Origin: Closterium sp. NIES-65
Lineage: Eukaryota; Streptophyta; Zygnematophyceae; Desmidiales; Closteriaceae
DNA: 64,000 nt
Assembly: GCA_948144175.1 (NCBI GenBank)
Contig: CANXME010002057.1
Span: forward strand, 2,776,001-2,840,000
Direction: 5' to 3'
Positions 19,690 through 47,760 of this stretch are shown in pieces; the first letter of the stretch is position 1, and the number at the start of each line of letters is the position of its first letter. The notes beneath the pieces are model-generated. The model was not told the origin of the DNA. It searched no databases and worked only from the letters and a program-made list of their open reading frames with translations. Both the position numbers and the translations under genes were made by a program.

Positions 19690-20471
19690 TTGACTATAAG
19701 ATCATGTGTTAGGTGTGGTACGCAATAGGATACAAGCATCTCACGACCTGCCACATCCCATCCCTTTGCACGGTCATGTTTCACTGTCTATGACGGGTCA
19801 TTCGGCTGTGGCAAGACACGGAATAGCTCCTTCAACGGTAAAGAGCAGCCCTACTAAGACTCAACAAAGACAATGGCCACGTAAACGTAATGGCCATCCC
19901 CATCAAGCACTATGAGGGTGATATAAACTCCCCTCGAAAACGTCGTGACCTTGTGTATGGACAGTGGGTCAAACTACGCCGCAACATGCCGCAAATTGAT
20001 GGCCAAGTTTCCTCACATGGAGTACATCCCATGGGCTACCCACGTCCTTGACCTACTGATGGAGGACATCAGGAAAATGGGATGGGCAAAGGACATTGTG
20101 ACGCGAGGTGCCAAGGTGATACCCTTTGTCCATAACCTCCACTTCACCCGTTTTTGCTTGAAGAGCACCAAGGTGAACGACGGGAAAGGAAAGCAGGTAC
20201 TGAAATGCGCGGGCACCCGATTAAGCAAAAAACTTCATCACGATTTCCCGCGTGTGTTAAGTATAAGTTGCCCTGGTGCAAATGGTCTTGAGTGGGAGTG
20301 GCGGGGATGGACAACAGGAGGAAGGGGGGCAAGGGAAAGAGTTCCCGCGACACCGTCCTTGATGCCCCTTGATGGAAGCATGCTAAGTCTTTAGCCAAGC
20401 TGTTTGACCTCCCGTTTGTGGTCATGCACAAAATCAACGCAACGGCGAATGGTATGATGGGTCGTCTTTCC
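19690..20471 (+). pseudogene. hAT transposase, left half
   Basis: ENVVTLCMDSGSNYAATCRKLM followed by IPWATHVLDLLMEDI and FVHNLHFTR is the central region typical of plant hAT-superfamily transposases (DUF659-type: catalytic-core Asp, then a HCLDLxLED-like motif, then FxxNH). The frame is clear from 19925 to 20228 and degenerates after it. The left end at 19690 is approximate; residues such as GYKHLTTCHIPS around 19730 fit the family loosely. At 20471 it reads GRL and is cut by the D1 LTR. The rest is at 47042. No terminal inverted repeat was identified. Confidence 0.75.
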
Positions 20472-20500
20472 TGTCAACGAGAGTTGTGTTAGGCCCCGTC
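20472..20500 (+). repeat. First 29 bp of the D1 5' LTR
   Basis: TGTCAACGAGAGTTGTGTT and the following AGGCCCCGTC match the start of the D-family LTR at 46162 and 44467. It is interrupted at 20501 by copia C. The remainder of this LTR and the start of D1 gag are missing. Confidence 0.8.
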
Positions 20501-20629
20501 TGTGAAGTAAAGAAAACAGGAATGGAATGACTAAGGAAAGATTGGGTACAAATACAACCCTAGAAACCCTGTACCCCATATGTGCTACCCCACTATAGCC
20601 TACAGCAACTATGTCATATAAATCTGACA
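20501..20629 (-). repeat. 3' LTR of copia C (129 bp)
   Basis: The minus strand begins TGTCAGATTT and ends ACTTCACA. It is preceded (plus 20630-20640) by the ATGGGGGTG polypurine tract. It shares the GGCTATAGTGGGGTAGC core with the other S-family LTRs. Confidence 0.85.
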
Positions 20630-20835
20630 CACCCCCATAGGCAAAGTGGGGGAGAACAAGGGGTCACAAGACCAGTCAAGCAAAGCAAAGCAAGCTCAGG
20701 GTGGATCACAAAGTCACCACACAGTCCGAGCACAAGAGTAGGGCCAGAGGCCAGTTCACATGCAGGAGTACAGACATATATATAAAACTAGACAAACAAG
20801 AGCAAGCATATATATATGTCACAGTACAAGTGAAG

Positions 20836-23481
20836 TCAAGAGGAGAGCAAGTGAGGCAAGACAGGCACAAGACCCAGCTGGGTGCAAAAGCGCTGATGGT
20901 CACAAGGCGCGAGTGCCTTGGTGAACACATCAGCAGTGTTGGCCTCAGAGGCCACGTACGCAAGTCGCAACTGACCACGCTGCTGCAGCTCACGAGCAAG
21001 GAAGTAGCGGAGAGCAATGTGCTTCGTTCTGTGCTCCAAGCGCTGCTCTCGACACAAGGCCAGCATAGCCTTGTTGTCTACGTACAGCACTGGAGGAGAA
21101 CGAGGTGGCTCTCCAAGGTCAGTCAGCAGGTAGGTGAGCCAGCGAAGCTCCTGTGCAGCCATGGCCCCGGCGTAGATCTCAGCCTCACAACTGGAGCCGA
21201 GAACCGAAGTCGAGCGAGTAGAACGCCACGAGACAGAGCCGGAACCAAGGCTGAAGGTGTAACCCTGTGACGACCGCTGCGTAGCCTGGTCGTCAGCCCA
21301 AGAAGCGTCCGCGTGGCCGGTAAGGACCACTGGACTCCGCCCTCCAAGCACTAGCCCCATGCCCGACGTACTGCACAGGTAGCGCAATACCCTCTTCGCT
21401 GCAGCCATGTGCTCCGGTCTGTGTCTCCCAGGAGCAACATAGCGTGCAAGAATGCTCAGAGGGTATGCAAGGTCAGGTCGTGTGCAGGTCATCAGGTACA
21501 TGAGGCAGCCAACAAGCTCTGCATACGGACCACTCGACTCTACGGACTCATCCGAAGGCAGAGCTGAGAGTGAGTGGCGAGTAGGCAGAGGAGTGGCCTG
21601 AGGCGAGGAGTACGTGAAGCCGAAGCGCTGAAGGACCTGCTGCACCATGTGTGACTGAGTCAAGGTAATGGTGCGGCGTGCTCTGTCCCGAGTGATCTGC
21701 AAGCCAAGGTAGCTGCGCAGTTCACCCAGGTCTGTGCACGTGTGTCTCTTCAGCAGCTCGGACTTCACGTAGGCGAGTCCAGCAGTGTCCGCTGTGGCAA
21801 AGACCAAGTCGTCGACGTACACGAGGATGTAGAACGGCGGCAGGGAAGTGTCGGTGCGAAGAAACAGCGACGGGTCAGCAGTAGAAGGAGCAAACCCAAG
21901 AGCCGCAAGCGTAGTCCTCAGTGTGTCGTGCCACTCACGCGGTGCCTGGCGGAGACCGTAGACTGGCCGTCGGAGGCTCCACTGGGTGCCAGGAGGGAAA
22001 GTCCCAGTGAAGCCAGGTGGACGGCGAAGCCAGATCTCCTCGTGCAGGCTACCCTGCAAGAACGCAGTGCTCAAGTCGAGAGAGTGAAGCTCGTAGTCGC
22101 GCTGAGCGGCTATGTGCAGCAGAACCCGAAGAGTAGTCATCTTCGGGGTGGGAGAGAAGGTCTGAAAGTAGTCAACTCCCTGTCGCTGACTGAAGCCACG
22201 AGCAACGTACCGTGCCTTGAAGACAGGTGGAGAGCCCGGCGGCCGCTTCACCCTGAAGATCCACATGCCACTGACGATGTTCGCCCCAGGAGGGGGAACC
22301 GCGTCAACGTAGGTGCCTGTGGACTTCCAGGAAGCCATCTCTGCATCCATAGCTGCCTGCCACTGAGAGGAGTAGGGACCCTCTACGGCCTCCGCGTAAG
22401 AACGCGGAGTCGGGATGTCTAGTGCATCCGGGTCTCCCTCAGGGGCAAGCAGTACAGACGCGAGATGAGGTGAAGCAGCCGCTAGACACTGTAACTCCTC
22501 CTGCCTGTCCTCTAGGACGTCCGTGCCAAGAGCACACTCACCCCCGACGGACGGAGGACAGACAGACGCAGACTCAGCAACAAGACTAGCAGCGTAGTCG
22601 AGACGACAGCGAGCAGCAAAGTCGACGAGCTCAGCGACAAGGGCAGACGCAGCAGTGGACTCAAACGAGGGGTCAGTGACAGCAGTAGCAAGGAGACGCG
22701 TGACAGTAGGACTGGCAGCACGAAGAGAGTCCGACTCAGGGTCGGCAAGCACAGGAAGAGAGGACTCAGGAGGAGAAGGCAAAGGGGCACGCAGAGGAGC
22801 AGTGGACGGACGCAAAGACATCCGGTGCGTGCCAGGGACAGGAGGAGGACGCTGACGCGAACTGCGACCACTAGCGCGAGCAGCACGAACAGGCGACGCG
22901 GGACGAGACGCAGGCTCACGACGCTCAGCAAGACCTCCAGTAGGACCAGTGTAAGGAGAGGGAGCAGGCAGTGGAGAGGAAAGCTCCAGCAGGGACTGCG
23001 ACTGGAGAGGCGGTGGACCTTCTACTGGAGGAGAAAGACCAAGAACCTGCTGTAGGAGTGGAACGAAGTACGGCCGAGGCCGCGCGGCAGCTCGAGACTC
23101 AGCAGGGACAGCACCACCACCCTCAGCGACAGCACGAGCGCCACCCACACCTCCAGCGGCAGGACCAACAGCAGTAGGCTCAGCACCAACGCCCTCAGCA
23201 GCTCTAGCTCCAGGAGGACCCGCAGGTCCAGCAGCTCCGGGACCGGCAGCACCTGCACCCTCGACAGTCGAAGAAGCTCCAGCTCCAGCTCCAGCAGCAC
23301 CTCCAGACGCAGCAGCACGCCTCCAGCGGCGAGCGAACCACTCGCGCAGCTCCTGTGGAGAGAGGGGCTCCCGGCAAGACGCAGCAGCAGGAGAAACCCC
23401 AGGCTCAGCAGCTCCAGACGCAGCACCCCCAGGCTCAGCAGCTCCCGACCCAGCACCCCCAGACCCAGCACCTCCAGGCAC
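20836..23481 (-). CDS. Copia C linker, reverse transcriptase and RNase H
   Basis: 881-codon open frame, the best preserved RT-RH of the S family. Residues 1-150 are an Ala/Gly/Pro-rich linker containing the SPQELREWFARRW box, and residues 150-350 a Ser/Pro-rich spacer. RT covers residues about 360-610, with WIFRVKRPPG, KARYVARGFSQRQGVDY, LDLSTAFLQG (first Asp), YGLRQAPREWH and YVDD at 555-558. RNase H covers residues about 720-880, with HADASWADD (D725), SSCEAEIY (E767) and YVDNKAMLALC. It ends naturally at 20836. It continues upstream in a different frame (integrase), so the frame start is not a protein start. Confidence 0.9.
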   Translation of the reverse strand: MPGGAGSGGAGSGAAEPGGAASGAAEPGVSPAAASCREPLSPQELREWFARRWRRAAASGGAAGAGAGASSTVEGAGAAGPGAAGPAGPPGARAAEGVGAEPTAVGPAAGGVGGARAVAEGGGAVPAESRAAARPRPYFVPLLQQVLGLSPPVEGPPPLQSQSLLELSSPLPAPSPYTGPTGGLAERREPASRPASPVRAARASGRSSRQRPPPVPGTHRMSLRPSTAPLRAPLPSPPESSLPVLADPESDSLRAASPTVTRLLATAVTDPSFESTAASALVAELVDFAARCRLDYAASLVAESASVCPPSVGGECALGTDVLEDRQEELQCLAAASPHLASVLLAPEGDPDALDIPTPRSYAEAVEGPYSSQWQAAMDAEMASWKSTGTYVDAVPPPGANIVSGMWIFRVKRPPGSPPVFKARYVARGFSQRQGVDYFQTFSPTPKMTTLRVLLHIAAQRDYELHSLDLSTAFLQGSLHEEIWLRRPPGFTGTFPPGTQWSLRRPVYGLRQAPREWHDTLRTTLAALGFAPSTADPSLFLRTDTSLPPFYILVYVDDLVFATADTAGLAYVKSELLKRHTCTDLGELRSYLGLQITRDRARRTITLTQSHMVQQVLQRFGFTYSSPQATPLPTRHSLSALPSDESVESSGPYAELVGCLMYLMTCTRPDLAYPLSILARYVAPGRHRPEHMAAAKRVLRYLCSTSGMGLVLGGRSPVVLTGHADASWADDQATQRSSQGYTFSLGSGSVSWRSTRSTSVLGSSCEAEIYAGAMAAQELRWLTYLLTDLGEPPRSPPVLYVDNKAMLALCREQRLEHRTKHIALRYFLARELQQRGQLRLAYVASEANTADVFTKALAPCDHQRFCTQLGLVPVLPHLLSS

Positions 23482-23650
23482 AGCACCCCCCAGCTCAGCA
23501 CCCCCAGCTCCGCACTCTCCGCAGTAGCACCCTCACGCCCAGCACCCCCAGCAGTAGCACCCCCAGGCTCAGCACCCCCGCGCACAGCACCCCCAGAGTC
23601 AGCACCCCCAGGCTCAGCACCCGCAGCAGCACCAGAGTCACCAGTAACCT
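23400..23650 (-). repeat. 15-bp linker minisatellite of copia C
   Basis: Units of about 15 bp around GCACCCCCAGGCTCA (plus strand) encode five-residue AEPGG-like repeats between integrase and RT. The phase shift between the two C reading frames lies in or beside this array, consistent with repeat slippage. Confidence 0.75.
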
Positions 23651-25400
23651 CGACCGGGTCAACGGCGTCTACCTGGGACACACCTGAGGGGGCAGGAACC
23701 TGAGGGGGGAGGGGGTCTACCGGGGGGGGAACCGGCACAAGGAAGTCCGGGGGAGGGGGGAGGGAAGGAGTGCGGTAGGGGAAGAGACGGTAGAAGGGGA
23801 CTGACTCGTCGAACGTGACGTCCTGGGAGGACAGAACACGACGAGAGGAGGGGTGGTAAAACTGCCACCCTGGGGCGTCAGTGGGGAAGCCAAGGAAGAC
23901 ACAGGGAGCAGCACGAGGGGACAGCTTGTCCGCAGACAAGTCGCGGACAAACGCCCGAGATCCCCAGACACGGAACACAGACGCATCGCCAACCTTCCCC
24001 GTCCACAGCAAGGCTGGGGACATCGCAGGCCGAGAGACCCGGGGGTGAAGGTTGAGCTGATGCGCCGCGTACCTCACCGCAAACGGCCACAGAAAATGGG
24101 GGGCAGCCGCATGCATCATGGACGTACGAGCGACATCCATGACCATGCCAATGCGGCGCTCAGCAATCCCATTTTGCTGTGGTGAGTCCGGAAGCGTGAA
24201 GTTCTGGCGGATCCCCCGTGCACGACAGTAGTCTCGCAGAAGGCGAGAAGAGAACTCTCCGCCTCTGTCAGAGTGCAGACGCAGAACAGGAAAGTCCGAG
24301 CCGAAGCTCTTCCTGAGCTGGAGACGAGCCACGCGGATCCAGTCGATCAGCACCTCAGTGACCGCACCCTTGCTGCGCAAGGGGAGGACTGTGGTGTAAC
24401 GCGAGTAGTCGTCAACCACCAACAGGAAGTAGCGCTCGTAACCCTGCCCACGGACGGGGGCTGGGCCCCACACATCCATGTGAAGCGTCTGCAGGGGAGC
24501 CTCTGTCGGGGGGAAGTGGGAGGAGTGAGGAGTAGCCCGGAGGCGACCCTCGACACAGGGGACACAAGAAGGTCCTGGCCCGGAGGGGAGAGGAAGGAGA
24601 GACTGGGGAAGACCAGAGACAAGGACACGGGAAGCCATGCTCCGAAGACGGGGCAAGGAGGGGTGGCCAAGACGGTGGTGCCACAGGAGAGTCTCGTGAG
24701 ACAGGAGGCGACAAGAACAGGGGGCAGACTCAGGACCTGACCGGGACGCAGCAGCAAGTACCTGACCCGACGCAGCCACCTGACCAGACGCAGGGACAGG
24801 AGGAGACTCAACGGTCAGGGTGTAGAGACTCGACCCCGGCCGACGCGAGAACGTGGCCAGGTGTCGGCCTGTGCGTGCCTCCGTGCAGTGGGTCACCCGC
24901 TGACTCGCAGGAGTGAACTGGTGAACACCCACATCCTGCAGGTCCGCTCCACTCACCAAGTTCGTAGAGAACGAGGGAAGGTACAGACCCGACAGGGTGC
25001 CCGAAGGGGCAGCCGGACACGGGAGGACAGTGGAGAAGTGAGACAGGACAGGACCCCCAGAGGGGTCAGCAAGGGAGACGGCAACCGGCCGGCCGAGCGG
25101 CGTAAGGGTAGTGCGGTCTCGAAAGAAGGAGCGAGAAGCTCCGGAGTCAAGTGTGAAAGTGAGGGAGGACGAGGACGACTCAGTACCTGAGAGCGCAGTC
25201 TCACCAGTACCTGAGAGCGCAGACGCACTGGCACCTAGAGCAGCAGCCTCACAAGCACCTAGCGCAGCAGTACCAATGCCCGGGTCGGGCTGGAAACAGC
25301 GGTAACCCTCATTCTCCTCACTATAATCCACAACATACATAGCAGTAAGGATAGCATCAAAATCAAGATCAAAGATCGCTACACCAGCCCTGAGAAGCTC
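23480..25400 (-). CDS. Copia C protease and integrase
   Basis: The frame is open from the gag-side IFDLDFDAILTAMYVV leader. Protease: FTLDSGASRSFFRDRTTLTPL near residue 60 of the frame (first methionine at 25340). Integrase zinc motif: LLWHHRLGHPSLPRL then CVPCVEGR. DDE core: HMDVWGP, HSDRGGEFSS and SPQQNGIAERR. FRVWGSRAFVRD and the GWQFYHP linker follow. The open frame itself runs on to 23022, but after about 23480 it reads the linker repeat in the wrong phase; the correct phase is that of the RT frame. Gag lies upstream in the same frame. Confidence 0.9.
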
Positions 25401-26604
25401 ATCCCAGCGAGGGATCTCACTAGCCCCAGGGAACTGCTGACGCCAGGCGTCCGTCAGGCGGCCAAAGCAGCGCTGGGTGGCGTGGGCACCCCCACACTGC
25501 TCACCCGCGCGGTCGCCGGAACGAAGAACGTAGGTGCAGGGACCAGTACCCCCACCCCTCTGACGCCCAGCGTACCACTCACGGAGCTGCTGAGGCGAAG
25601 GGATGTCCCGAGAGCGCTGCTGCTACTGCCGCTGCGAGCGCTGGCCACCACCACCGCCGCTACGCTGCTGGGTACCACCCCGACCAGATCCACCCCCTCC
25701 ACCACCACTGCCTCCTCCGCTGCCGCCTCCACCGCCTCCACCTCCGCCGCCTCCACCTCCGCCGCTGCCTCCACCACCACCGCTGGCACCACCACCACCG
25801 TCTCCGCCGCTGCTGCCACCACCACCACCACCCCCGCCACTAGTCCCGCCGCCACCCCCACTCCCTCCGCCGCCACCGCCGCCACCGCCACCGCCCCCTC
25901 CAGCTCCACCCGCGCCCTTGCTCCCCTTGCCCTTGCTGGAGCGACGTCTCCCACTAGGGGCAGACGCCGCGCCGACCGACTCAAGACCAAGCAGGTCGGC
26001 AGCAGCAGCAGAGGCAACAGAGGGCAGCAAGGGGGAAGGAGAGCACCCCTCAAAGATGGGGGTGCGAGGGTCACCACGAGAAGCACCTACAGCGACGATG
26101 CTCTTCTCCGCTGCGAGGAGGGCCTTCTCGAGGAGGTCGACGGTGAGGGTGGTGGGACAGACTGCGAGAAAGTGGTCCCTGACGACTCGAAGGGAGTCAG
26201 GGAGGCGCGCGACTACGTAGTAGAGAGCGATGTACATGGGGGGGGGGTTCTTAGCGCAGAACTCAGCAGGAAGGGCGGCGCGGTAGCGAGTGTCACTAGT
26301 GCGGAGGTGCGTAATGAGGTCAGCGACAGTGGGAAAGGCAGAGAGGTCAGGAAAGAGGTAGGGAAGCATGAGACGACTCAGTGCAGCAGTGGCAGGGGAG
26401 GAGTAGCGCGCAACTACAGCGTCGTACAAGGTCTGAGCACTCTTGTACTGACTGAAGTGCGCACGCTCAGAGGTAGGGAGGTGGCGACGCACAGCAAGAC
26501 GTGCAGCAGCATCGCGGGTGGCCCACTTAGAGCGGACAGCGGGATCAGCATCAGCAGCAGGAGCAGGAGAGGCGGCAGAGGTGAGATCAAAGAGGCGGCA
26601 TCGA
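25400..26604 (-). pseudogene. Copia C gag (N-terminally truncated)
   Basis: Gag with the UBN2/copia-type core: VRSKWATRDAAARLAVRRHL, YKSAQTLYDAVVARYSSPA and DHFLAVCPTTLTVDLLEKAL. A very long glycine tract follows (about 25640-25915, GGX repeats), then SPQQLREWYAG and a Cys-rich knuckle (CTYVLRSGDRAGEQCG ... RCF). The open frame ends at 25623-25625 with TAG where relatives have CAG, then stays open into protease. The N-terminus is missing beyond 26604. The long plus-strand frames here are the antisense of the glycine tract. Confidence 0.85.
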
Positions 26605-26639
26605 AGTGGATGGACGCCGATGTCGGCGACCCATATGAC

Positions 26640-27540
26640 AGCAGGCGGGATTGCACCGAGCTACGGCTACTTCAAGTTTACGCCGGACGGGATCTTGGTC
26701 ACTCCCCTTCTGGCCATTTGACCCGACATTCTCACCTAGAAGGAAGCCATCAAGCCCCAGCTGGAGATGGCCGGGCTGATCGGCTTTGCTCGTGGTACCG
26801 TGGCAACACCGGATGACCTCGACCTACATGCAAAGTTTTGCGCGGTGCAGTTGCTGACCTTCACGGTCATCTCGGGGTGCTGCTCGCTGAGCGTGCAGAT
26901 CACCCTGAAGTCATGCAGGGGGTACCTTGATGACGGCTACCGGGCGTGGCACTTCATCAAGTCGACTTACCAAGTTACCGCCAACTTGTTCATCGCCCAG
27001 CTTGAAGGGCACTTCATCAAGTCGACATACCAAGCAGCCGACAACTTGTTCATTGCCCAGCTTGAAGGTCAACTTACCAAGGGAGGCTGCGGGAGGTCTG
27101 GCATACATTGTCCACGTCGAGGAGGAGACAAGCCACGCAACGAGACGCAGTCGACCAAGTCGACCTCGGCGAAGGACACCGACTCCTCTGTTGGCGGCAA
27201 GAGGCGGGACGACAAGGCGGCGTCGTGCTCGCTGGTCGTCGTTGTAGAGCCAACCGCCTCGCTGGCGTCGGAGGCTGGCGAGGACTTCCAGGCAATGGCA
27301 GCAGCTGTGCAGGCGAATCCTTTGGTGGTCTTGCTCGACAACTGCTGCTCCCACGACATGATGGGGACGAAAGAGGTCTTCGTCGACCTACCGCCAAGCG
27401 GCGACGTCAAGCATGTGCGCCGCTTCAATGGGGTGCTGCAAGACGTCCAGGGCCGCGGCACTATCGTCCAGGGGAGGCCGGGAAGTAGGTGCTCATCCCC
27501 AACGTGCTCTACGTCCTAGGTGTGCGAGCGAACCTACTTT
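26640..27540 (+). pseudogene. Copia D1 gag and protease
   Basis: GGIAPSYGYFKFTPD, LEMAGLIGFARGTVATP and LLTFTVISGCCS match gag of D2. A 60-bp tandem duplication (26950-27009, 27010-27069) repeats the STYQ...NLFIAQLEG segment. The following gag portion with the CCHC knuckle, present in D2, is deleted. Protease reads VVLLDNCCSHDMMGTKEVF against LDSGCSHHLMGTKEVF of D2, so the active-site DSG is DNC and probably dead. Two stops lie before 26770. Confidence 0.85.
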
Positions 27541-28430
27541 CGGCCGGGCAGCTGAAGGAGAACGGCGTGAAGCTGCAGGAGGACGGCGATGGGATGCTGC
27601 TCGTCTCGGCGGCGGGAGAGGTGCTCGGTCGAGCAACGTACACCGGGGGTGTCCTCTTCACCAGCGTGCGCCCCTGCTCGACAAATCAGAAGACGACCAC
27701 CATGGAGGTGGTGGCCCTGCGGGCGATCGTTTCAACGTCGAAGGCAACGCCGGACAGGCTGCATGCGAGGCTTGCATACGTTGGCATGGACACCATACAG
27801 AGCTCGGCAAAGCACGAGGTCGCCACCGGGACCTCAAGCCGGCGTCGGGCGCCGGCTCCCCGTGTGTCTCATGCGTCGACGGGAAGTTGGCGCGGCACAC
27901 CTTCCCCGACTAGGGCTCTGACGCCGACGACGTGCTGGCTATCGTGCACATCGACCTGTGCATGCCTTTCCGCGTGGCTGCCAAGAACGGCAGCCTGTAC
28001 TTCTTGCTGCTAAAGGACCACAAGACCCGCTACGTCTGGTTGAGGTCGATCGCAAGGAAGTCGGATGCGTTGCCGGAGTTTGTGCAGTGGCTGACGGTGG
28101 CTGAGCGACAGACGAAGAAGTCGGTGTTGATGCTGCGCTCTGATCGGGGAGGGGAGTTTCTCGGGAAGCAGTTCACTGACTTCGTCAACGGCAAGGGGAT
28201 CCTCCACGACCTGACCTGCCCGTACACCCCGCAGCAGAACGGCATGGCGGAGAGGGAGATGAGGATGGTGGTGGAGTCGGTGCAAACAATGCTACTGCAC
28301 ATGGGCGTTCAGCACCACTAGTCGCACCTTGCTCAGCGGCAAGCCATCTAGGTCTGCAACTGCCTAGAGAGGTCGACACTGCCACCGGGGACGACGCCGT
28401 ACCAGCTGCTCACCGGGAAGAAGCCCGACC
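27489..28430 (+). pseudogene. Copia D1 integrase
   Basis: IPNVLYVLGVRANLLSAGQLKENG leads to a degenerate zinc region (frameshift near 27830). The core has HIDLCMPFRV, LRSDRGGEFLGKQFTDF and TPQQNGMAEREMRMVVE, all three acidic positions present. Stops replace tryptophan codons near 28319 and 28350. RVWGCMAQFLVPE follows at 28441. Confidence 0.85.
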
Positions 28431-28435
28431 TGTCG

Positions 28436-30489
28436 ATGGCACGTGTGTGGGGCTGCATGGCGCAGTTCTTGGTCCCTGAGCTGCAACGTGGTGGGAAGTT
28501 GAAGGCGAAGGCCAGGTGGGGCCTTCACCTCGGTGTGTCGAGGGAGAGCAAGGGTTGGGAGCTACTCGACATCACCGACATCCGGGTGGTCACCACGTCG
28601 GATGTGGTCTTCTACGAGGACGTGTCGTTGGAGGTGTGGAAGTCGGAGCACGGGCCGGCATCGGGCCGGACGTCGACCGACACCTTGACGGCAACACTCC
28701 CTTTGCTCGCCGAGGTCGGTGAGCCTGCTGCTGAGGATGTCAAAGATGTCCCCTTTCCCTCTCCCTCCCCTGTCCCTCCTGCCCCTTCCCTTGTAGCCAA
28801 CCTGCGTGGGCTGACTCCAATGTCGGCCTCCAACAATGGGAGAGACGTGGGACGACGCCTTTGGCGTCGGCCAAGAGCATCGCCGGTGGACGACGTGACG
28901 AACAGCAAGTCGACGTGGGAGTGAAGTCGACGTTGATAGAGGAGGAGCAGGCCAAGGAGGTGCAGCCAAATTTGGTGAAGCCGGCAAAGAAGGCACCAGC
29001 AGGGCAGCAACTGATAGGGGAGCAGGCAGCCGCGACGCCGACCGCGTACTCGGCGACTCGGCAGTCGGTAGGTGAGCCGACCACAGGGGAGAAGTCGGCA
29101 GGGAAGCCGACCGTTGTTCGGCAGGACTATGAGGGCAGTGAAGCCGATGACGATGAAGGGGACGCCGAGGAGTCCACCGACAGCGATGTGGTGGAGGTTC
29201 ATCTTGGACCTCGGACGTCAGGCCGAATTCGGAGGCCACCCGACTTCTTCATTCCCGCTGCCTTCACCACGGTCTACGATGTGGACGATGATGATGAATC
29301 GCTATATGACGACGTTGAGGAGGATGAGGAGTTTCCGGAGCTCGACTCTGACATGCATGCCGACCCTAAACACCGTTGGGACATCTCGAAGATGACGGTG
29401 AAGGAGGCGTTGGCGAGCTGGAAGGGCGCGGTGGTGAAGGCCACCATGGAGGAGGAGATCCGCAGCCTCATCAGCATAGGGACGTGGGAGCTTGTCGAAC
29501 GCCCGCTGGGAGTGAACATCATGAAAAACCGGTGAGTGCTGACGACGAAGTACCACATCGACAACATCGTTGAGCGTGAATAGGCCAGGCTGGTCATAAA
29601 GGGCTTCACCCAAGTGTATGGCGCCGACTATGACGAGACGTTCACGCTGGTGGGCAGCTATGTCATGCTGAGGATCTTCCTCAGCATCGTCATCGTCCTC
29701 AACCTCAACCTGATGCAGCTCGACATGAAGAACGCCTTCCTGCAAAGCAAGCTTGACCGGGTGCTGTACATGTACCCGCCGAAACCGGCCGGGTGTGAAA
29801 GCTGCTGAAGAGCATGTACGGGCTGAAGTAGTCGCCACTGCTGTGGTAATTGGCGCTCAACGACATGCTGGTCAGCACCGGGTGGAAGAAGAGCCAGGTC
29901 AACAAGGCTCTATACTTCAAAGTCGGCGACAACGGTGTGGCCTGCTGGGTGCTGGTCTACGTCAACGACCTGCTCGCTACCAGCAATAGCCTGAGATGCT
30001 GGAGGAGCCAAAGGAACTGCTAGAGGCCGCCTATGAGCTGCGCGAGAACTCACCGGTGCAGAAGTACCTTGAGATGGAGATCGCGAGCAAGAGGCCGTCG
30101 AGGAAGCTATGGCTGCACCAGCAGGGCTACGCCGACAAGCTGCGTAGGCGCTTCATCGATGAGGAGTAGACCGGGCGCACCCTGAAAACGCTGGTCTTGG
30201 TCTACGCCTACGCCGAGCTTACCTTTGATGACGAGGAGGCGCAGGAACGCCAGGAGGAGGAGTACCGGCAGAAGGTCGGCTCGCTGCAGTTCGGGGCAAC
30301 GACGTCGAGGCCGAACATCGCCTTCGCCTGCAGCAAGCTGGGGAGCGGCCTCATGGTGAGGAGCGACCAGCATTGGCGCGAGGTCGACCGCTGCCTCGCC
30401 TACCTCGCCAACACGCGTGACACCGCCCTGGAGTTCGGCGGTGGACCAGAGACGCTAGAGCTGGTCGGCTATGTGGACGCCAACAACGC
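28436..30489 (+). pseudogene. Copia D1 linker, reverse transcriptase and partial RNase H
   Basis: An acidic linker to about 29350, then RT: MKNRWVLTTKYHIDN, LMQLDMKNAFLQSKL (first Asp at about 29722) and YVNDLLATS where YVDD is expected, i.e. N for the first Asp. CAG-to-TAG stops lie at 29829 and 30167. RNase H begins NTRDTALEFGGGPETLELVGYVDA and is cut at 30489 by D3. Confidence 0.85.
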
Positions 30490-30618
30490 TGTCAACGGGA
30501 GTTGTGTGCTGGCCCCGTCCTCGCTTGGGCGGAGCCGACTTCGTGGTCGGGTGCGCGGGGAGCAGCCGACTTGTAGCAGTGGGCGAGCTGGTTGACAAGG
30601 AGGTCGACCTGCATGGCA
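30490..30618 (+). repeat. D3 5' LTR, first part
   Basis: TGTCAACGGGAGTTGTGTG begins the LTR, which runs to the D2 target site GCCAC. It aligns with 44467-44595 and continues after D2 at 38390. Confidence 0.85.
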
Positions 30619-30623
30619 GCCAC
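30619..30623 (+). repeat. Target site duplication of D2, left copy
   Basis: GCCAC, repeated exactly at 38385-38389. The uninterrupted site is seen in the sister LTR near 44596 (GGAGCCACTGCATGGGC). Confidence 0.9.
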
Positions 30624-37080: not shown

Positions 37081-37190
37081 CACCTCGGCGTCGCCTACGC
37101 GCACGCTAGTGACCGCACGGCTGCCGGTCTACGAACACGATCGGTATGTGCTAAGTCGGCTAGACTGAACGACGTCGCGGTGTCGTCCAC

Positions 37191-37203
37191 GCTCACCGCA
37201 CCA
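37191..37203 (-). promoter_or_regulatory. Putative primer-binding site of D2
   Basis: The minus strand directly after the LTR reads TGGTGCGGTGAGC. TGG is complementary to a tRNA CCA end, but the rest does not match the initiator-methionine site used by the other families here. The matching tRNA is not identified. Confidence 0.6.
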
Positions 37204-38384
37204 TGCGGAGATAACTACTACAACGGGAGCTTAGAGTACTGGCTAGGCACGTGTGCTCGTGTGATGTCTGCGTTCGTTGGTCCTTAGACGTTTTCCTAGT
37301 GCTCACACTGCTTGCTAGTTCATGGGGCAATTTGGCAAGAGTTTCACTAGAGAACGTTGTCAATATTGGTACAATCAAGTTGGCATGGCAAGACTACATC
37401 AGAGCTAGCATTCAGGTTGGTCGACTGCCAGCACAGCATGGTCGACCGCGTTCCAGCACGACTTGGTCGACCGCGCTCCAGCAGTGCAAAGTCGACAGCT
37501 TGCCAACGCTGCAGGTTGACGGTGTGCCAGCATTGCTCACGCAGGACAGCAGTGCACCCGCTTTGCAGGTGCGCGCAGATGGTTTGCATGCAGAGTCTCG
37601 TCATCTGCACAGCGCACACACCAGGTCAACCTCGGGCTAGCGACTGCCTCTGATCCGCCACGACGACCTCGGGATACCACCATGGAGGTCGGTCTCGCCA
37701 ACTTCGCCTGGGTGACCGTCGCACTCCTTCGCAGAACCTCGTCACCCAGGTATCCTGGTCGACCGGGCAACTATGTCGACCAGCTGCTCCTGTATGTGCT
37801 CGTCGACCTCCCAAGTCGACAACCACACCAAGTCGACCTCACCAGGTCGACCACTCCTCTGGTCGACCAGCTCCAGGTCAACGTCACTCCTGGTCGACCA
37901 GTGCAGTTGTCAGCCGACCACCCAAGTCGGCTACCCAAAGTCGGCGTCACCAGGTCGACGCCCCTTCTACGTCGGCGCCGACTTCCAGGCTGACCTCTCG
38001 AAGTCGGCGTCCTCCCAAATCGGCGCCGACTTGCAAGTCGGTGACCTTGCAAGTCGGTGACCTTGCAAGTCGGTGACCTTGCAAGTCGGTGACCTTGCAA
38101 GTCGGTGACCTTGCAAGTCGGTGACCTTGCAAGTCGGTGACCTTGCAAGTCGGTGCCGACTTCCAGGTCGACGTGCCACATCGCCGACCACCAGTTGAAG
38201 TCGGCCGCCGGCTTCCCAAGTCGGCGGCATTGCAGTGGCGCCGTGCAAGTCGACCAACCCCGTCGACCAGCTCGTCCAAGCCGGCGTCCCCACTGCTGCA
38301 AGTCGGCTGTACCTTCCGTACACCCCACCACAAAGTCGGCTCCACCCAAGCGTGGACGGGGCCAACACACAACTTCCGTTGACA
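37204..38384 (-). repeat. 5' LTR of D2 (1181 bp)
   Basis: The minus strand starts TGTCAACGGAAG and ends TTATCTCCGCA. It has eight copies of the 16-bp unit (about 38030-38155). It is almost identical to 30624-31820. It is flanked by GCCAC at 38385. Confidence 0.95.
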
Positions 38385-38389
38385 GCCAC
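38385..38389 (+). repeat. Target site duplication of D2, right copy
   Basis: GCCAC, matching 30619-30623. Confidence 0.9.
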
Positions 38390-39325
38390 TGCACGGGCGC
38401 CGACTTCAGGGTGGCGCCAACTTTAGGGAGGTCGACCTGGGAAGTCGACCTGCGGAGGGCGTCGACTTGGTGACGCCAACTTAGGGCAGCCGACTTGGAT
38501 GGTCGGCTGACAGGCTGCTGGTCAACTTGGTGCTTGGTCGACCAGGCGTGATGTCGACCTGACCTGGTGGTCGACGGAGGAGGGGCCGACGTCGACCACG
38601 ACTCAGGACGCCGAGCAGCTGAGCGTCGAGTAGTAGGGCGTCAACTTGGTGATGCCGACTTCGGGTAGCCGACTTGGGTAGTTGGCTGACAACCGCGCTG
38701 GTCGACGTGGAGCTGGTCGACCAGGAGCGACGTCGACCTGGAGCTGGTCGACCAGGGGCGTGGTCGACCTGGTGAGGCCGACTTGGGGTGGTCGTCAACT
38801 TGGGAGGTGGACGGGCACATACAAAAGCAGCTGGTCGACGTGGTTGCCCGGTCGACCAGGTCACATGGGTGACGAGGTTCTACGGAGGAGTGCGACTGTC
38901 GCCCAGGCAAAGTTGGCGAGTCCGACCTCGGTGGTGGTATCCCGAGGTCGACGTGGCTGATCAGAGACAGTAGTCAACGCCAGGTTGACTTGGCGTGTGT
39001 GCTGTGCAAATGACAAGGCTCCGCACGCCAATCATATACGAGAACCTGCGAAGCTGGTGCGATGCTGTTCTGCGGGAGCAACGCTGGCACGCCGTCAACC
39101 TGCAACGTTGGCATGCCGTTGACTTTGGACTGCTGGAGCGCGGTCAACCAAGTCGTGCTGGAACGCGATCGACCATGCTGTGCTGGCAGTCCACCGACCT
39201 AAATGCTAGCTCTGATGTAGTCTTGCCATGCCAACAACATTGTACTATTGTTGTCCAATTTTCTCTAGTGAAACTCTTTGCCAACTTGCCCTGTGAACTA
39301 GCAAGCACTGTGTGCATACGACATA
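38390..39325 (+). repeat. D3 5' LTR, second part
   Basis: Resumes TGCACGGGCGCCGACTTCAG after D2 and aligns with 44600-45480. The last 100 bp or so of the LTR and the primer-binding site are missing or replaced: after AGCACTGTGTGCA sequence diverges before D3 gag begins near 39360. Long frames here are artefacts of GTCGAC-rich repeats. Confidence 0.8.
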
Positions 39326-39397
39326 CCTTTCAGTCAGGTCGACGTAGTGGTCACTTACCTAAGTTGCTCGTAGGCCGGTAGCCGTACAGTCCCTAGC

Positions 39398-40790
39398 GTG
39401 CGCATAGGTGACACCCTGGATGGACGGCTGGAGGATGCGAGGAGACGCCATGAGGCCCAGGAGTACGGGGCGGTACCCCGGGCGATCGTCAAGGCTGGAC
39501 TCCGCTCCATGTGGGCGACAGAGCGTCCCCCTTCTCGACCAGCTTCTCCTCGACCGGTGACCAACGAAGGCGGCGTCGACGTGGGTGTCAACGCCGGAGG
39601 TGGCCAAGTCGGCAGGAGTGCGGGAGGCACGTCGAGGCAGCGTGGAGCGATTCACGCCGTTGAAGTCGGCGGTGTTCAGGTGCGAGGGAGGCAGTCGTCG
39701 GCGGCTGCAGTCTCCTTGCAAGGCGCATCGGAGGTCGACGAAGCAGATTGTCGCCGATGTTGGCGACCCATGTGACGGCGGGCGGGATAGCACCAAGCTA
39801 CGGCTACTTCAAGTTTGCGCCGGATAGGATCTTGGTCACCCCGCCGCTCTTTGGTCGACAGTACATACTCACCTGGAAGGAGGCCATTGAGCCCCAGCTG
39901 GAGATGGTCGGGCTGATCAACTTTGCTCGAGGTACTCTGGCGACTCCGGACGACCCCGACTTACGTGCGGAGTTTCGCGCCGTGCAGCTGTTCACCTTCA
40001 TGGTCATCTCGCGGTGCTGCTCACCGGGCATGCAGATCGCCTTGAAGTGGTGTCGAGAGTACCTCGACGCCGGCCATCAAGCGTGGCACTTCACCGATGA
40101 CTTGTTCAACTCCCAGCTTGAGGGGCAGCTGACGCACCTGCGTATGGGCGACTAAGAGACAGTGACCGACTACTGCAACCGAGCTCGGCGAATTTTCGCC
40201 ACCATCAGGAGGGCCGGCGCGCAGTATTCGACGGCTTCGTACGTCACCCACGTCATGCAGGGACTCTCGAGCAGCTACAACCTCCTGAAGCGGCTGTCCA
40301 TGGCGCCGAGCACGAGGACGATGCTCAACGAGGACAAATTGACCTCGTACATCCTGCAGGACGAGGCAATGCAGGAGGCCGAGTGGTCTCAGGAGCTCTT
40401 GGTGCAGGCAAACTACGTCGCCCCGGGGAAGTCAGATGGCCGATCGGGGCAGCGCGGATAATCTGGCAAAGGAGGTAGCAGTGGCTGGAAGTCGAACAAG
40501 GAAGTCGACTAGAAGAAGTCGACCAAGGACAGCGATCAAGGAGGAGGAAGTCGACGTCGGGAGTGCTGGATCTGCCACAGCCCCGACCACCTCTCCTTCG
40601 AGTGCCTCGACCGCAGTGACTCCAAAGACGATGACGCCAAGGGAGGCCGCGGGAGGTCTAGCAATCGTCGTCCTCCTCGAGGAGGAAACCAGCCGCGCAA
40701 GAAGAAGCAGTCGACCAAGGCGTCGACATCGGCGAAGGACACCGACTCCTCTGCTTGCGGCAAGGGGCGGGATGATAAGACGGCGTCGTG
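39398..40790 (+). pseudogene. Copia D3 gag
   Basis: LDGRLEDARRRHEAQEYGAVP opens gag. PSYGYFKFAPDRILVTPPL, INFARGTLATPDDPDL and DYCNRARRIFATIRRAG follow. A TAA near 40153 replaces an expected Asp/Glu codon in MGD-stop-ETVTDY. The CCHC knuckle CWICHSPDHLSFEC is retained near 40563-40605 in a shifted frame. Upstream the gag start is near the damaged LTR end. Confidence 0.85.
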
Positions 40791-42145
40791 CTCGCTGGTT
40801 GGCGTCGTGGAGCCGACCGTCTTGCTGGCACCGAAGGCCAGAGAGGACTTCCACGCGGTGGCAGCAGCTATGCAGGCGAACCCGGCGGTGGTCCTGCTTG
40901 ACAGCGGCTGCTCCCACCACCTGATGGGGACGAAAGAAGTCTTCGTCGACCTGCAGCCGAGCGGCTCCATCAAGCACGTGCGCAGATTCAATGGGGCGCT
41001 ACAGGACGTCCAGGGCTGCGGCACCGTCGCCCTGCAAGGGGAGGCCGGGAAGCAGGTGCTCATCCCCAAAGTGCTGTACGTCCCGGGTGTTCAGGCAAAC
41101 CTGCTATCGTCTGGACAGCGGAAGTTGTAGGAGGACGGTGACAGGATGTTGCTCGTCTTGGCAGCGGGAGAGGTGCTCGGTCGGGCGACGTACTTCGGGC
41201 GTGTCCTTTGCACCGACTTGCGTCCCTGCTCAAAGAGGTCGGCGTCTCCCACGCCGAAGGTTGCGGCCCTGCGGGCGATCGCCTCGAAGACGAAGTCGAC
41301 GCTGGACAGGATGCATGCGAGGCTTGCACACGTCGGCATGGACACCATACGGAGCTCGGCGAAGCACAAGGTCGCTACAGGGCTGGACCTAGAGTCGACA
41401 ACGGGCGCCGACTCACTGTGTGTCTCGTGCGTCGGCGGGAAGCTGGCGCGGCACACCTTCCCCAACCAAGGCACCTGACGCCGACGACGAGCTGGCCGTC
41501 GTGCACATCGACCTGTGTGAGCCGTTCCGCGTGGCTGCCAAGGACGGCAGCTTGTACTTCTTGCTGCTGAAGGACTGCAAGACCCGCTACGTGTGGTCAG
41601 GCCGGTCACCAAGGAGTCGGATGTGCTGCTGGAGTTCCAGAAGTGGCTGGTGTTGGTGGAGAGGCAGGTGAAGAAGTTGGTGCTGATGCTGCGCTCAGAC
41701 CAGGGAGGGGAGTTCCTCAAGAAGAAGTTCACCGACTTCGTGGACGACAAGGGGATCGTCCACGACCTTACCTGCCCGTACACCCTGCAGCAGAACGGCA
41801 TGGCGGAGCGGGAGATGAGGACAGTGGTGGAGTCGGTATGGAGGATACTGCTGCACATGGGCATGCAGCACCACTGGTGGCACCTCGCTCTACGACAGGT
41901 CGTATGGGTCTGCAACTGCCTTGAGAGGTTGACGCTGCTGCCGGGGACAACGTCGTACCAGCTGCTCACCGGGCAGAAGCCCGACGTGTCGCTGGCACGG
42001 GTGTGGGGCTGCATGGCGCAGTTCCTTGTCCCCGAGCAGTAACGTGGTGGGAAGCTGAAGCTGAAGACCAGGTGGGGCCTTCACCTCTGTGCGTAGACGG
42101 AGAGCAAGGGCTGGGAGCTCCTTGACATCGCCGACAATCGGGTGG
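40790..42145 (+). pseudogene. Copia D3 protease and integrase
   Basis: Protease VVLLDSGCSHHLMGTKEVF is intact in sequence. A stop follows SGQRKL at 41128. The integrase zinc motif has MHARLAHVGMDT and CVSCVGGKLARHTF. A frameshift lies near 41475-41500. The core HIDLCEPFRV, LRSDQGGEFLKKKF and LQQNGMAEREMRTVVE keeps the acidic positions (Q for R after the second Asp). A stop near 42040 in PEQ-stop-RGG ends the frame. Confidence 0.85.
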
Positions 42146-43620
42146 TCACCACGTCGGACGTGGTGTTCTACGAGGATAAGTCACTGGAGGTGTGGAAGTC
42201 AGAGCACGGGCCGGTGACAGGACGGATCCCGACCACCTCGCCGTCCGACTTCTTAACGGCGACGCCACCTCTACTCGCCGGGGTTGGTAAGCTTACTGGT
42301 GAGGACGTCGAGGTCGTCTGTCCTCCTCCCACTACGACCCCTGCCCCTCCCCTGGTTGCCGACCTGCACGGGCTGACTCCTATGTCTTTCTCCGCCGATG
42401 AGAGGAGTAGTGGGACGTCGCCTTCGGCGTCGGCCAAGGGCATCGCCGGTGGCCGGCGTGTCGAGCGGCAAGTCGACGTGGGGGTGCAGGTCGAGCAGGT
42501 CGAGGAGGAGCAGCCGACTTGGGTGAAGCCGGTGAAGAAGGCAGCCGGGCAGCAGCCGACGAAGGAGCAGGCAGCGGTGAAGCCGACCACGGAGCAGTCT
42601 GCAACCAGGCCGTCGGCAGAGGAGCCGACCACAGGGGAGAAGTCGGCCAGGAAGTCGATTGAGGTGCAGCAGGGCGACGAAGGCAGCAAAGCCGGTGACG
42701 AAAGAGGGGACGCCGAGCTGTTCACCGACAGCGACGTGGTGGAGGTTTGGCCTGAACCCCGGAAGTTAGGCCAACTTCGGAGACCACTGGACTTCTTCGT
42801 CCCCGCTGCCTTCACCATGGTGTACGGCGTCGACGACGACGACCTGGCGTATGACGATGCCAAGGTTGATGAGGAGTTTCCGGAGCTCGACCCTGACATG
42901 CATGCCAACCCCGAGCACCGTTGGAACATCTCGACGATGACGGTGAAGGAGGCGTTGGCGAGCTGGAAGGGCCCAGCGGTGAAGGCCGCCATGGAGGAGG
43001 AGATCCGAAGCCTCATCAACATGGGCACTTAGGAGCTGGTTGAGCGCCCGCCGTGGGTGAACATTATTATGAACCGGTGGGTGTTGACGACGAAGTACCA
43101 CGTCCACGACACCATCGAGCGCGAGAAGGCGAGGACTACTTCAACGACGGAATCGGCCGGGTATGCAAGTTGCTGAAGAGCATGTACGGCCTGAAGCAGT
43201 CGCCGCTGCTGTGGTACTTGGCGCTCAACGACGTGCTGGTCGGCGCCGGGTGGAAGAAGAGCCAAATCGACGGGGCTCTGTACTTCAAGTTTGGCGACGA
43301 CAGAGTAGCCTGCTGGGTGTTGGTCTACGTCGACGACCTGCTCGCCGCCTGCAGCAGCACCGAGATGCTGAAGGAGTTGAAGGAGCTGCTGGAGACCGCC
43401 TTCGAACTGTGTGAGATCTTGCCGGTGCAGAAGTACCTCGGGCTGGAGATCATCCGTGATAGGTCGGCGGGGAAGCTGTGGCTGCACCAGCAGGGCTATG
43501 CCGACAAGCTGCGTATGCGCTTCATTGATGAGGAGCAGACCGGGCGCACCCCGAAGACGCCAGTCTCAGTCGAAGCCTACGCCGACCTCACCTTCGACAA
43601 AGAGGAGGCGCAGGAGTGAT
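42142..43620 (+). pseudogene. Copia D3 linker and reverse transcriptase with internal deletion
   Basis: The acidic linker (42142-42900) and the N-terminal RT portion (HRWNISTMTVKEALASWKG, then stop at 43030) are followed by EREKAR joined directly to DYFNDGIGRVCKLLKSMYGL at 43134. Compared with D2, about 66 codons are missing here, including MQLDMKNAF with the first catalytic Asp. YVDDLLAA at about 43327 is intact. The downstream frame is open to 43619. RT cannot be functional. Confidence 0.88.
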
Positions 43621-43639
43621 AGGAGGAGGAGTACCGGCA

Positions 43640-44336
43640 GAAGGTCAGCTCGCTGCAGTTTGCGGCGACGACGACGAGGCCGGACATCGCCTTCGCCTGC
43701 AGCAAGCTGGGGAGCGGCCTCACGGTGAGGAGCGACCAGCACTGGCGCGAGGCCGACCGCTGTCTTGCCTACCTCACCAATACGCGTGACACTGCCCCGG
43801 AGTTCGGCGGTGGACCTGAGTCGCTGGAGCTGGTCGGCTACATGGACGCCGGCGACGCCGGTGACAAGCAGAATAGGACGAGCACTGGCGGATATGTGTT
43901 CGTCTACGGAGGGGCTGCAGTCTCTTGGTCGAGCCAGCGCATCAAGTGCGCGACGGTGTTGTCGACCAAGTCGGAGTACGTGGCGGCCAACGAAGCCGGC
44001 AAGGTGGGACGCTGACTCCGCTTCCTCTTTGCAGAGTTCCGGCAGCCGGATGCCGGGAAGCCGACAGTCCTCCGGGTGGACAACAAGTCGGCCACCAATG
44101 TCGCTGAGGGCATGGGGTTGACGGGCAACCTCAAGCACATGGAGCGGCGATACGCCTGGCTGCAGCACATGGTTAAGCGCAGGAAGTTCTCGCTGAGGTA
44201 CATCCCGACCACCGAGCAGCCGGCCGACTTCCTAACGAAGGCGCTGCACTATCCGGCCTTCAACCAGTGCTCCGTCGCCATCGGCCAGGTGCGCTTGGCC
44301 GACGTGGGTGACGAAGTTGACGAACTGCAGCAGTAG
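43640..44336 (+). pseudogene. Copia D3 RNase H
   Basis: LVGYMDAGDAGDKQNRTSTGGYVF, STKSEYVAANEAGKVG (a stop follows at 44013) and LRVDNKSATNVAEG lead to RQVRLADVGDEVDELQQ-like C-terminal residues and the natural stop at 44334-44336. The catalytic Glu position reads K-S-E as in the family's T-E/K-S-E variant. It is continuous with the RT remnant upstream. Confidence 0.85.
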
Positions 44337-44466
44337 GTGCCATGCCCTCTTGCATGGCTGGTGCGGTGGAGGACGTGCTGTGTGTTGGGTGCATGTTGAT
44401 GAGCTATTCTCCGAGGAGCGCTGCCGTGTGGGCCGGTGGGGCCCAAGCGTGAACGCGGCAGGGGAG

Positions 44467-45576
44467 TGTCAACGGGAGTTGTGTGTTGGCTCCGACCTCG
44501 CTTGGGCGGAGCCGACTTCGTGGCCGGGTGCGCGGGGAGCAGCCGACTTGTAGTAGTGGGCGAGCTGGTTGACGAGGAGGTCGACCTTCATGGGAGCCAC
44601 TGCATGGGCACCGACTTTAGGGTGGCACCGACTTCAAGGAGGTCGACCTGCGGAGGGCGTCGACTTGGTGATGCCAACTTAGGGCAGAAGAACTTGGGTG
44701 GTTGGCTGACAGGCTACTGGTCGACTTGGTGCTTGGTCGACCAGGCGTGATGTCGACCTGGTGGTCGACCTGACCTAGTGGTCGACGGAGGAGGGGCCGA
44801 CGTCGACCACGACTCAGGACGCCGAGCAGCTGCGCGTCGAGTAGTAGGGCGTCAACTTGGAGACGCCGACTTCGGGTAGCTGACTTGGGTAGTGAGCTGA
44901 CAACCGCGCTGGTCGACGTGGAGCTGGTCGACCAGGAGCAACGTCAACCTAGAGCTGGTCGACTAGGGGTGTGGTCGACTTGGTGAGGCCGACTTGGGGT
45001 GGTCGACGACTTGGGAGGTTGACAGGCACATACAGGAGCAGCTGGTCGATGTGGTTGCGTGGTCGACCAGGTTACCTGGGTGACGAGGTTTTGCGGAGGA
45101 GTGCGACTGTCGCCCAAGCGAAGTTGGCGAGTCCGACCTTGGTGGTGGTATCCCGAGGTCGACGTGGCTGATCAAAGGCAGTAGTCAACGCCAGGTTGAC
45201 TTGGCGTGTGCGCTGTGCAGGTGATAAGACTCCGCACGCCAATCATCTACGAGAACCTGCGAAGCTGGTGCGATGCTGGCACACCGTCAACCTGCAACGT
45301 TGGCATGCCATCGACTTTGCACTGCTGGAACGCGGTCGACCATGCTGTGCTGGCAGTCGACCGACCTGAATGCTAGCTCTGATGTAGTCTTGCCATGCCA
45401 ACTTCATTGTACTATTGTTGTCAACTTTCTCTAGTGAAACTCTTGCCAACTTGCCCCATGAACTAGCAAGCAATGTGTGCACTAGGAAAACGACTAAGGA
45501 ACAGAGAACGCAGAGATCACACGAGCATCCGTGCCTAGCCCGTAGTCTAGCTCAAGTTGTAGTAGTTATCTCCGCA
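44467..45576 (+). repeat. 3' LTR of D3 (1110 bp)
   Basis: Starts TGTCAACGGGAGTTGTGTG after the GGCAGGGGAG tract and ends GTAGTTATCTCCGCA. It shows the uninterrupted GGAGCCACTGCATGGGC that corresponds to the D2 insertion site in the 5' LTR. It lacks the expanded 16-bp array of D2. GTCGAC hexamers are frequent. Confidence 0.9.
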
Positions 45577-46065
45577 GTGACAAACAGAGCCAGACGAGCA
45601 CGGGTGGCTACGTGTTCGTCTATGGAGGGGCCGCAGTCTTGTGGTCGAGCGGGCACATCAAGTGCGCGAGGCTGTCGTCGACCGAATCGGATTACGTGGC
45701 GGCAACTAAAGTCGGCAAGGAGGGACGCCGCCTTCGCTTCCTCCTTGCAGGAGTTCTGGCAGCTGGATGTTGGGAAACTGACCGTCCTTCAAGTGGACAA
45801 CAAGTCGGCCATCACGGTCGCCGAGGGTTATGGGGTTGACGGGCAACCTCAAGGACATGGAGCGGCGACAGGCCTGGCTGCAGCACATGGTGAAGTGCTG
45901 GAAGTTTTTGCTGAAGTACATCCCGACCGCTGAGCAGCCGGCCGACAACCTGACGAAGGCGTTGCACTATCCGGCCTTCAACCGGTACTGTGTCGAAATT
46001 GGCCAGGTGCGCTTGGCTGACGTGGGCGACGACGTGCCATGCCTTCTTGCATGGCTTGTGCGGTG
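45577..46065 (+). pseudogene. Copia D1 RNase H, second half
   Basis: GTGACAAACAGAGCCAGACG resumes RNase H about two bases after the point where D1 broke at 30489. TSTGGYVFVYGGAAV, SSTESDYVAATKVGKEG, LQVDNKSAITVAEG and MERRQAWLQHMVK follow. The C-terminus ADVGDD matches D2 and D3. Two frame changes occur. Its 3' LTR begins at 46162. Confidence 0.85.
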
Positions 46066-46149
46066 ACCAGCGTGCTGTGTGTTAGGTGCACGCTGACGGG
46101 CTATTCTCGGAGCTGCACTGCCGTATGGGCTGGAGGCCCAAGCGTGAAT

Positions 46150-46161
46150 GCGGCAGGGGAG
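46150..46161 (+). promoter_or_regulatory. Polypurine tract of D1
   Basis: GCGGCAGGGGAG directly before TGTCAACGGG of the D1 3' LTR, as in D2 and D3. Confidence 0.75.
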
Positions 46162-47041
46162 TGTCAACGGGAGTTGTGTTAGGCCCCGTCCTCGCTTGGG
46201 CGGAGCAAACCTGGTAATTGGGTGTGCGGGGGAGCGCAGTCAACCTATGCGGGGGCCATTGCACTAGCGGCGACTTCAGGTTGCCGACTTTGGGGTGGTC
46301 GACCTAACCTGGTGGTCGACGAGGGAGGGGCCAAGGTCGACCTTGATAGGGGAGGCTGGGGACGCTGAGTTGGCGCCGAGCAGCTGGGCGTCGAGCGGGC
46401 TTCGTGGTGGAGGGCGTCGGACATTGGGGACGCCGGGCTTGTGTAGCCAGCGACCGACCAAGCTGGTTGACTAGGAGTGGTTGCCCGGTCGACCAGGATA
46501 CCCGGGCGACGTGTGCGAAGGTCGCCTGGGGATGGCCTGTGCGAGGCCGACCACGGGGGTGGTATCTCGAGGTCGACATGGCTGGTGGGCGCAGTCACTG
46601 GCGTGGAGTCTGCCAGGCGTCTGCGTTGTGCTCATGACGAGGAGTAGTGCACCAATCAGCTGCATGCACCTACGAAGCAGGTGCACCGTTGTCCTACGGG
46701 TGCAAAGCTGTGCAGCCGACTTGCTGCAGCATTGACACACTGTGGATTTGCAACGTTGGCAAGCCGCGACTTTGCTCTGCTGGAACGCGGTCGACCAAGT
46801 CGTGCTAGCATGCGGTCGATTGTGCTGCACTGGCGGTCGACCAGCAGCTTTGCTAGGCCTGATGTGGTCTTGCATGCCATCATTGTTGTGAACTTTTGCT
46901 AGTGTAACCCTTTCCCAAATCCCTCGTGAACCAGCAAGTAGTGCAAGCACGAGTAAACAACCAAGTGAACAAACGCAGAGATCACACGAGCATCCGTGCC
47001 TAGCCTGTAGTCTAGCTCCCATTGCTTTATTTATCTCCGCA
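46162..47041 (+). repeat. 3' LTR of D1 (880 bp)
   Basis: Starts TGTCAACGGGAGTTGTGTT and ends TTTATCTCCGCA. It shares GTTAGGCCCCGTC with the 29-bp remnant at 20472-20500, which supports both as ends of the same element. It is shorter than other D LTRs because of internal deletions. Confidence 0.85.
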
Positions 47042-47760
47042 TCTACGACCTCCTGCTCCAGCTCGCCGAGGACGCCCGTGACTATCTCAATGAGCATACG
47101 AGGGGGTAGGTGGGGGAGATTCGCAAGATTGTGAAGGACTGTTGGGACGGGGGGTTGGCATGCAACATGCACATGGTTGGCCGCATTCTGAACCTAGCCA
47201 ACCAAGAAGAAGGCATCTTCCGTACTGACCTAGAGTGCACGAGGGTGTTCAAGGCATACATAACTGCGACCACCTGACCATCACCAAGAAGGATGTGGTC
47301 GACTGTCGTGCCTCCCTCATTATCCAAGAGGGCCTCACGGCATTCACGGACCTCCAAGGTAGCTTTGACATGCCCGACATGATTGTGGATTGTATGAAGG
47401 AGGGCAAGCAAAGCGCTGTTTCTTTATGGATGAGGCACAAGACCGATTTTCTTGAGATCGCAATACTCGCATGCCGCGTCCTTACTCAGCCTGAGTCTGC
47501 AGCAATGTGAGAGGAATTGGGCGATATGGGATGCCGTGCATAAGGTATGGCAGAACCACCGGGGCTCCGAGAAGCTGTGGGACCTCGTGTACGTTGCGCA
47601 TAATAGGGAAAGGGGTCCCTCAAGGGCAAGGGGTGGTCAGGTGAAACAATGAGGAGCCCCCCATTCCCACAGGTTACAATGTCGACAAGGAGATGGGGTA
47701 GGACAATGTCCTGAACAATGAGTATGTGTAGAATGTGCACTGGCATGTGGGGTAGAAAGG
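47042..47760 (+). pseudogene. hAT transposase, right half
   Basis: YDLLLQLAEDARDYLNEH opens the segment, then GGLACNMHMVGRILNLANQE, ILACRVLTQPESAA and CERNWAIWDAVHKVWQNH followed by KLWDLVYVAHNRER. This is the C-terminal dimerisation region of hAT transposases (ERNWS...IH...RNRL...KLxxLVYVxxN). Three or more frameshifts or stops are needed to join the blocks (TAG near 47107, shifts near 47270 and 47507). Joining to 20471 through TCTAC restores G-R-L-Y-D in frame. Confidence 0.8.

Follow-up and report, generated by a model that had tools for sequence, protein, structure and literature searches.

The window, a stretch of 64,000 bases, contains a dead hAT transposase gene in which copia-type elements are nested in an ordinary way. 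The two halves of this gene are separated by a block of 26,570 bp (20472-47041). With good confidence we conclude that the element D1 inserted into the hAT gene, that C and D3 were then added in D1 and D2 in D3, and that a deletion at the boundary of C and D1 may have followed. The nest can be read from the domain matches, the LTR edges, the topology of the interruptions, the target-site duplication of D2 and the in-phase join of the hAT halves. The features of the locus are as follows.

19927 to 20471, + strand: left part of a DUF659-type hAT transposase gene, decayed (PF04937 match and reading frames)
20467 to 20471, + strand: TTTCC, putative left copy of the target-site duplication of D1 (3 of 5 bases identical to TCTAC)
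20472 to 20500, + strand: left (5') LTR of D1, first 29 nt only (28 of 29 identical to 46162-46190)
20501 to 26590, - strand: element C, copia-type retrotransposon in the left LTR of D1, truncated at its 5' end (RVT_2, rve, SH3_retrovirus, gag_pre-integrs)
26590 to 30489, + strand: internal region of D1, first piece (aligned to D3 39739-43858 and, in reverse, to D2)
30490 to 45576, + strand: element D3, copia-type, in the RNase H-like reading of D1 (self-alignment, interrupted reading, RVT_2)
30624 to 38384, - strand: element D2, copia-type, in the left LTR of D3 (5-bp duplication, RVT_2 and rve)
45577 to 46161, + strand: internal region of D1, second piece (picks up the reading broken by D3)
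46162 to 47041, + strand: right (3') LTR of D1, 880 nt (TG...CA ends; terminates level with the LTRs of D2 and D3)
47042 to 47046, + strand: TCTAC, putative right copy of the target-site duplication of D1 (compared with TTTCC)
47042 to 47649, + strand: right part, taken as the same hAT transposase gene (PF05699 match and reading frames)

The two halves of the presumed hAT gene

According to an excerpt of PMC3985635, DUF659 belongs to hAT transposases and is often accompanied by a C-terminal dimerisation domain, the DUF659-type family being found mostly in Viridiplantae. The left half was recognised by a match of the Pfam profile for the catalytic domain DUF659 (PF04937) in the open reading frame 19927-20394 (E value 1.2e-11, 45 bits at a cut-off of 34.7). 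This match is partial, comprising positions 92-150 of the 152 positions of the profile, and is situated at 19936-20112. A hAT N-terminal domain was not recognised in the pieces scanned, profile positions 1-91 of DUF659 being unmatched, nor was the N-terminal part recognised in 19690-19926 when this region was read in three frames. The reading shifts frame at least once upstream of the cut and may include a stop near 20370. Past a frameshift the left half reads on as ...LAKLFDLPFVVMHKINATANGMMGRL, and the codons GGT CGT CTT TCC (G-R-L-S) run to 20471, the last base before the block.

On the other side of the block the right half, starting at 47042 with TC TAC GAC CTC CTG (Y-D-L-L in the joined frame), reads YDLLLQLAEDARDYLNEHTRG. 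Read by eye, it comprises one in-frame stop and two frameshifts. The putative C-terminal dimerisation region lies in this half. The profile of the hAT dimerisation domain (PF05699) matched the right half alone with an E value of 5.1e-4 and 20.2 bits, just under the cut-off of 21.4, and the joined read-through with an E value of 0.0012 and 19 bits, also just below the curated cut-off. Both halves are located on the same strand and the recognised domains do not overlap. The G+C content of the halves, 0.52 and 0.54, is below that of C, D2 and the first D1 piece (0.61-0.63). We infer that the two halves were once one gene copy.

A sequence-only reading had proposed that one hAT gene is split by a 26.6-kb nest, and this proposal is upheld by the DUF659 match on the left, the weak dimerisation match on the right and the LTR boundaries at the edges. 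The interval of 19690-47760 given in that reading starts near the edge of an upstream remnant, whereas the recognised hAT sequence starts near 19927.

Rejoining of the halves and the proposed D1 target site

When the block and 5 bp are removed, the halves join in phase, as the earlier reading had stated for the removal of 20472-47041 and one 5-bp copy. Of the overlaps tried, from three to eight bases, those of 5 and 8 preserve the phase and those of 3, 4, 6, and 7 break it. A length of 5 bp is also that of the duplications at D2 (GCCAC) and at the gypsy-type element at 7466-13005 (GGTTT). The same reading had taken TCTAC as the target site with TTTCC as its mutated left copy. The 5-bp overlap agrees with this assignment in keeping the phase, but the two pentamers are identical at 3 of 5 positions only, and among pentamer pairs drawn at random from the window 11% agree equally well or better (chance 0.11). 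The proposed duplication is compatible with an insertion and is by itself little evidence for one.

DUF659 transposases have an M-G-x-x-Y-[ED] stretch, which the junction resembles. Since the searches turned up no relative that spans the junction, the presumed continuity across 20471/47042 rests on the phase and on this motif. Several of the collections searched for such a relative may leave out records of the genome to which the window belongs. PDB sequences gave one match, an unrelated enzyme with an E value of 1.2, and no hAT relative across the junction; no stretch of IMG/VR matched the read-through protein, phage records gave no match by tblastn, and no NCBIfam family matched. Among GTDB genomes 8 stretches fitted a pattern and none was confirmed. 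Degenerate DNA patterns for hAT motifs yielded 4 viral and 62 genome loci, and later patterns 1 and 11 viral loci. The read-through, compared by tblastn with the first 66 of these loci, gave three weak hits (best E value 0.062), and the same three were obtained with all 78 loci (best E value 0.075). We rejected the pattern loci as hAT relatives; the translations around the patterns look unrelated to hAT by eye. A plasmid search with 69 amino acids of the left half returned one match, an unrelated gene with an E value of 1, and a text search of the literature for the letters of a hAT motif found no match.

D1, the probable founding element

The right LTR of D1 is complete, starting with TGTCAACG and ending with CCGCA, and self-alignment places its end at the end of the D2 and D3 LTRs. 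The 29 nt that are left of the left LTR were searched for in the 64,000 bases allowing up to 3 mismatches. Just two sites were found, 20472-20500 and 46162-46190, compared with no match in 100 shuffles. The LTRs of D2 and D3 differ from the D1 LTR within this stretch, and thus the left fragment is tied to D1. A remnant of 29 nt is too short to gauge the LTR divergence of D1.

The interior of D1 restarts between 26566 and 26602. The alignment is firm only from 26602, which corresponds to 39739 in D3, and consequently the remainder of the left LTR and the beginning of the interior are missing. At the other end 45577-46231 was self-aligned to D3 43861-44537 with the LTR start included. The one open reading frame of D1 that was scanned (28735-29535) matched no Pfam family, RVT_2 included; the element is probably copia-type, as its DNA aligns with that of D2 and D3.

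Two rival explanations have to be weighed here. The hAT pieces could stem from different copies if recombination between LTRs of the D family had fused two separate loci. The 3 of 5 match of the D1 target-site duplication would suit such a fusion, as would the presence of several D-family elements close together and a left D1 LTR that is down to 29 nt. We nevertheless regard the fusion as unlikely, as the recognised hAT domains, DUF659 in the left piece and the dimerisation region in the right one, do not overlap, the phase is kept at the expected 5 bp, and the variant found in the left LTR fragment is that of D1 and not that of D2 or D3. Alternatively, a misassembly or a chimeric contig could have flanked the repeats with unrelated hAT fragments. 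The region consists almost wholly of repeats and the locus is known here from the assembly alone. Random misjoining, however, would not be expected to produce the perfect duplication of D2, a D1 reading that resumes beyond D3 just 2 bp short or an in-phase hAT join, and we consider this explanation very unlikely. An insertion of D1 into a single hAT gene copy is thus the reading that we prefer.

Element C in the left LTR of D1

Element C starts at 20501, directly at the end of the 29-nt fragment, and its right edge lies somewhere from 26566 to 26602. C aligns with a related element up to 26566, which corresponds to 54896 in that element. We also considered C as a complete element and rejected this; the only match of its LTR end in 26000-26800 was 15 nt long (E value 0.34) and is no convincing second copy. 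Perhaps one deletion across the boundary of C and D1 removed both the 5' end of C and most of the left LTR of D1.

Relatives of C are present in the window at 1-5470, 48640-54900, and 55768-59072, being about 67-91% identical to C in the aligned pieces. One of them, at 460-5470, carries at its ends repeats of about 95 bp with 73% identity. Tandem repeats occur in C-type polyprotein reading frames at 51230-51746 (33-bp unit) and 23357-23652 (15-bp unit), the units being multiples of three.

Elements D3 and D2

D3 interrupts an RNase H-like reading of D1, which was recognised by eye. Its RVT_2 domain was matched in the open reading frame 43044-43619 with 84.1 bits at a cut-off of 31.6 and is partial (positions 110-226 of 244). 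A target-site duplication was not found for D3: the pentamers AACGC (30485-30489) and GTGAC (45577-45581) match at 1 of 5 positions. The reading of D1 breaks off at ...GACGCCAACAACGC before D3 and resumes with GTGACAAACAG... after it. In D3's own copy of this stretch two bases stand between the flanks; therefore D3 lacks a duplication, and D1 is short of about 2 bp at this site. For D3, and perhaps also for D1, a repair-like entry that does not depend on integrase, makes no normal target-site duplication and costs a few bases at the site is conceivable, though in our view quite unlikely.

The self-alignment of the D3 LTRs stops at 39316/45481, about 95 nt before the end of the right LTR, so that the end of the left LTR of D3 also seems to be lost. 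The two LTRs, the left one being set together from two pieces, differ by 72 substitutions in 1002 sites (7.2%), with 72 gap columns.

D2 is inserted in this left LTR and is flanked by a perfect duplication, GCCAC at 30619-30623 and 38385-38389. Its LTRs show 6 substitutions in 1179 aligned sites (0.5%) and 16 gap columns. Between the LTRs the minus strand carries open reading frames from 37128 to 31951, in the order gag, integrase, and RVT_2. The integrase profile rve scored 45.4 bits and RVT_2 186.4 bits; gag reached 25.1 bits, just under the cut-off of 27.

Further elements of the window

Upstream of the hAT gene we recognised by eye, from stop-to-stop readings, a decayed copia-like remnant on the + strand at 14700-19690, which ends at about 19690 with an apparent 3' LTR abutting the hAT gene. 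The one fragment of this remnant that was scanned (18338-18727) had no Pfam match. Its 5' LTR was not found by blastn in 1-19100, and a local alignment in 13301-15100 scored 14 compared with a shuffled mean of 14.1. On the minus strand at 7466-13005 lies a gypsy-type element with LTRs of 332 bp (5 substitutions) and a perfect 5-bp duplication, which splits older sequence related to 59074-59908. Rfam at gathering thresholds gave no matches in the window.

Proposed order of the insertions

We propose that D1, a probable copia-type LTR retrotransposon, would have integrated in sense within the coding sequence of a hAT gene of DUF659 type, just past the M-G-R-L codons. C, a member of a second copia family, would later have entered the left LTR of D1, and D3 would later have entered the RNase H-like region of D1, no order being implied between C and D3. 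D2 would have entered the left LTR of D3. A deletion over the boundary of C and D1 could then have taken the 5' end of C, most of the left LTR of D1 and the start of the D1 interior. The LTR divergence of D2 is lower than that of D3, as the position of D2 inside D3 requires. The earlier suggestion that D1 is the founder, with C, D3 and D2 nested, is therefore in agreement with both the interruptions and the divergence of the LTRs.

Very probably the locus is no more than non-functional debris. As a worked example of how nested insertions are read from nothing but the sequence, it offers a relative clock, D2 being young and D3 older, and a disrupted hAT gene by which the oldest event of the nest is anchored. 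No general view of transposons is altered by it.

Comparison with known systems

Nested LTR retrotransposons have been described for large plant genomes. The present nest resembles them in that younger elements lie in older ones, in that the LTRs of D2 are less diverged than those of the interrupted D3 and in the 5-bp duplication of D2. It differs in details only: a duplication is lacking at D3, and both C and D1 have lost sequence at the point where they meet.

The Ty1/copia superfamily is characterised by the reverse transcriptase PF07727, with the integrase ahead of the reverse transcriptase. RVT_2 is present in C, D2, and D3, with rve and SH3 matches also in C and D2, whereas D1 is placed in this superfamily solely by its DNA alignment to D2 and D3. 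With the DUF659-type hAT transposases (PF04937 with PF05699) the split gene shares a DUF659 match and, more weakly and just under the cut-off, a match to the dimerisation domain. In contrast to these, the copy described here is decayed and has no recognised N-terminal domain, and a copia-like remnant ends just upstream of it.
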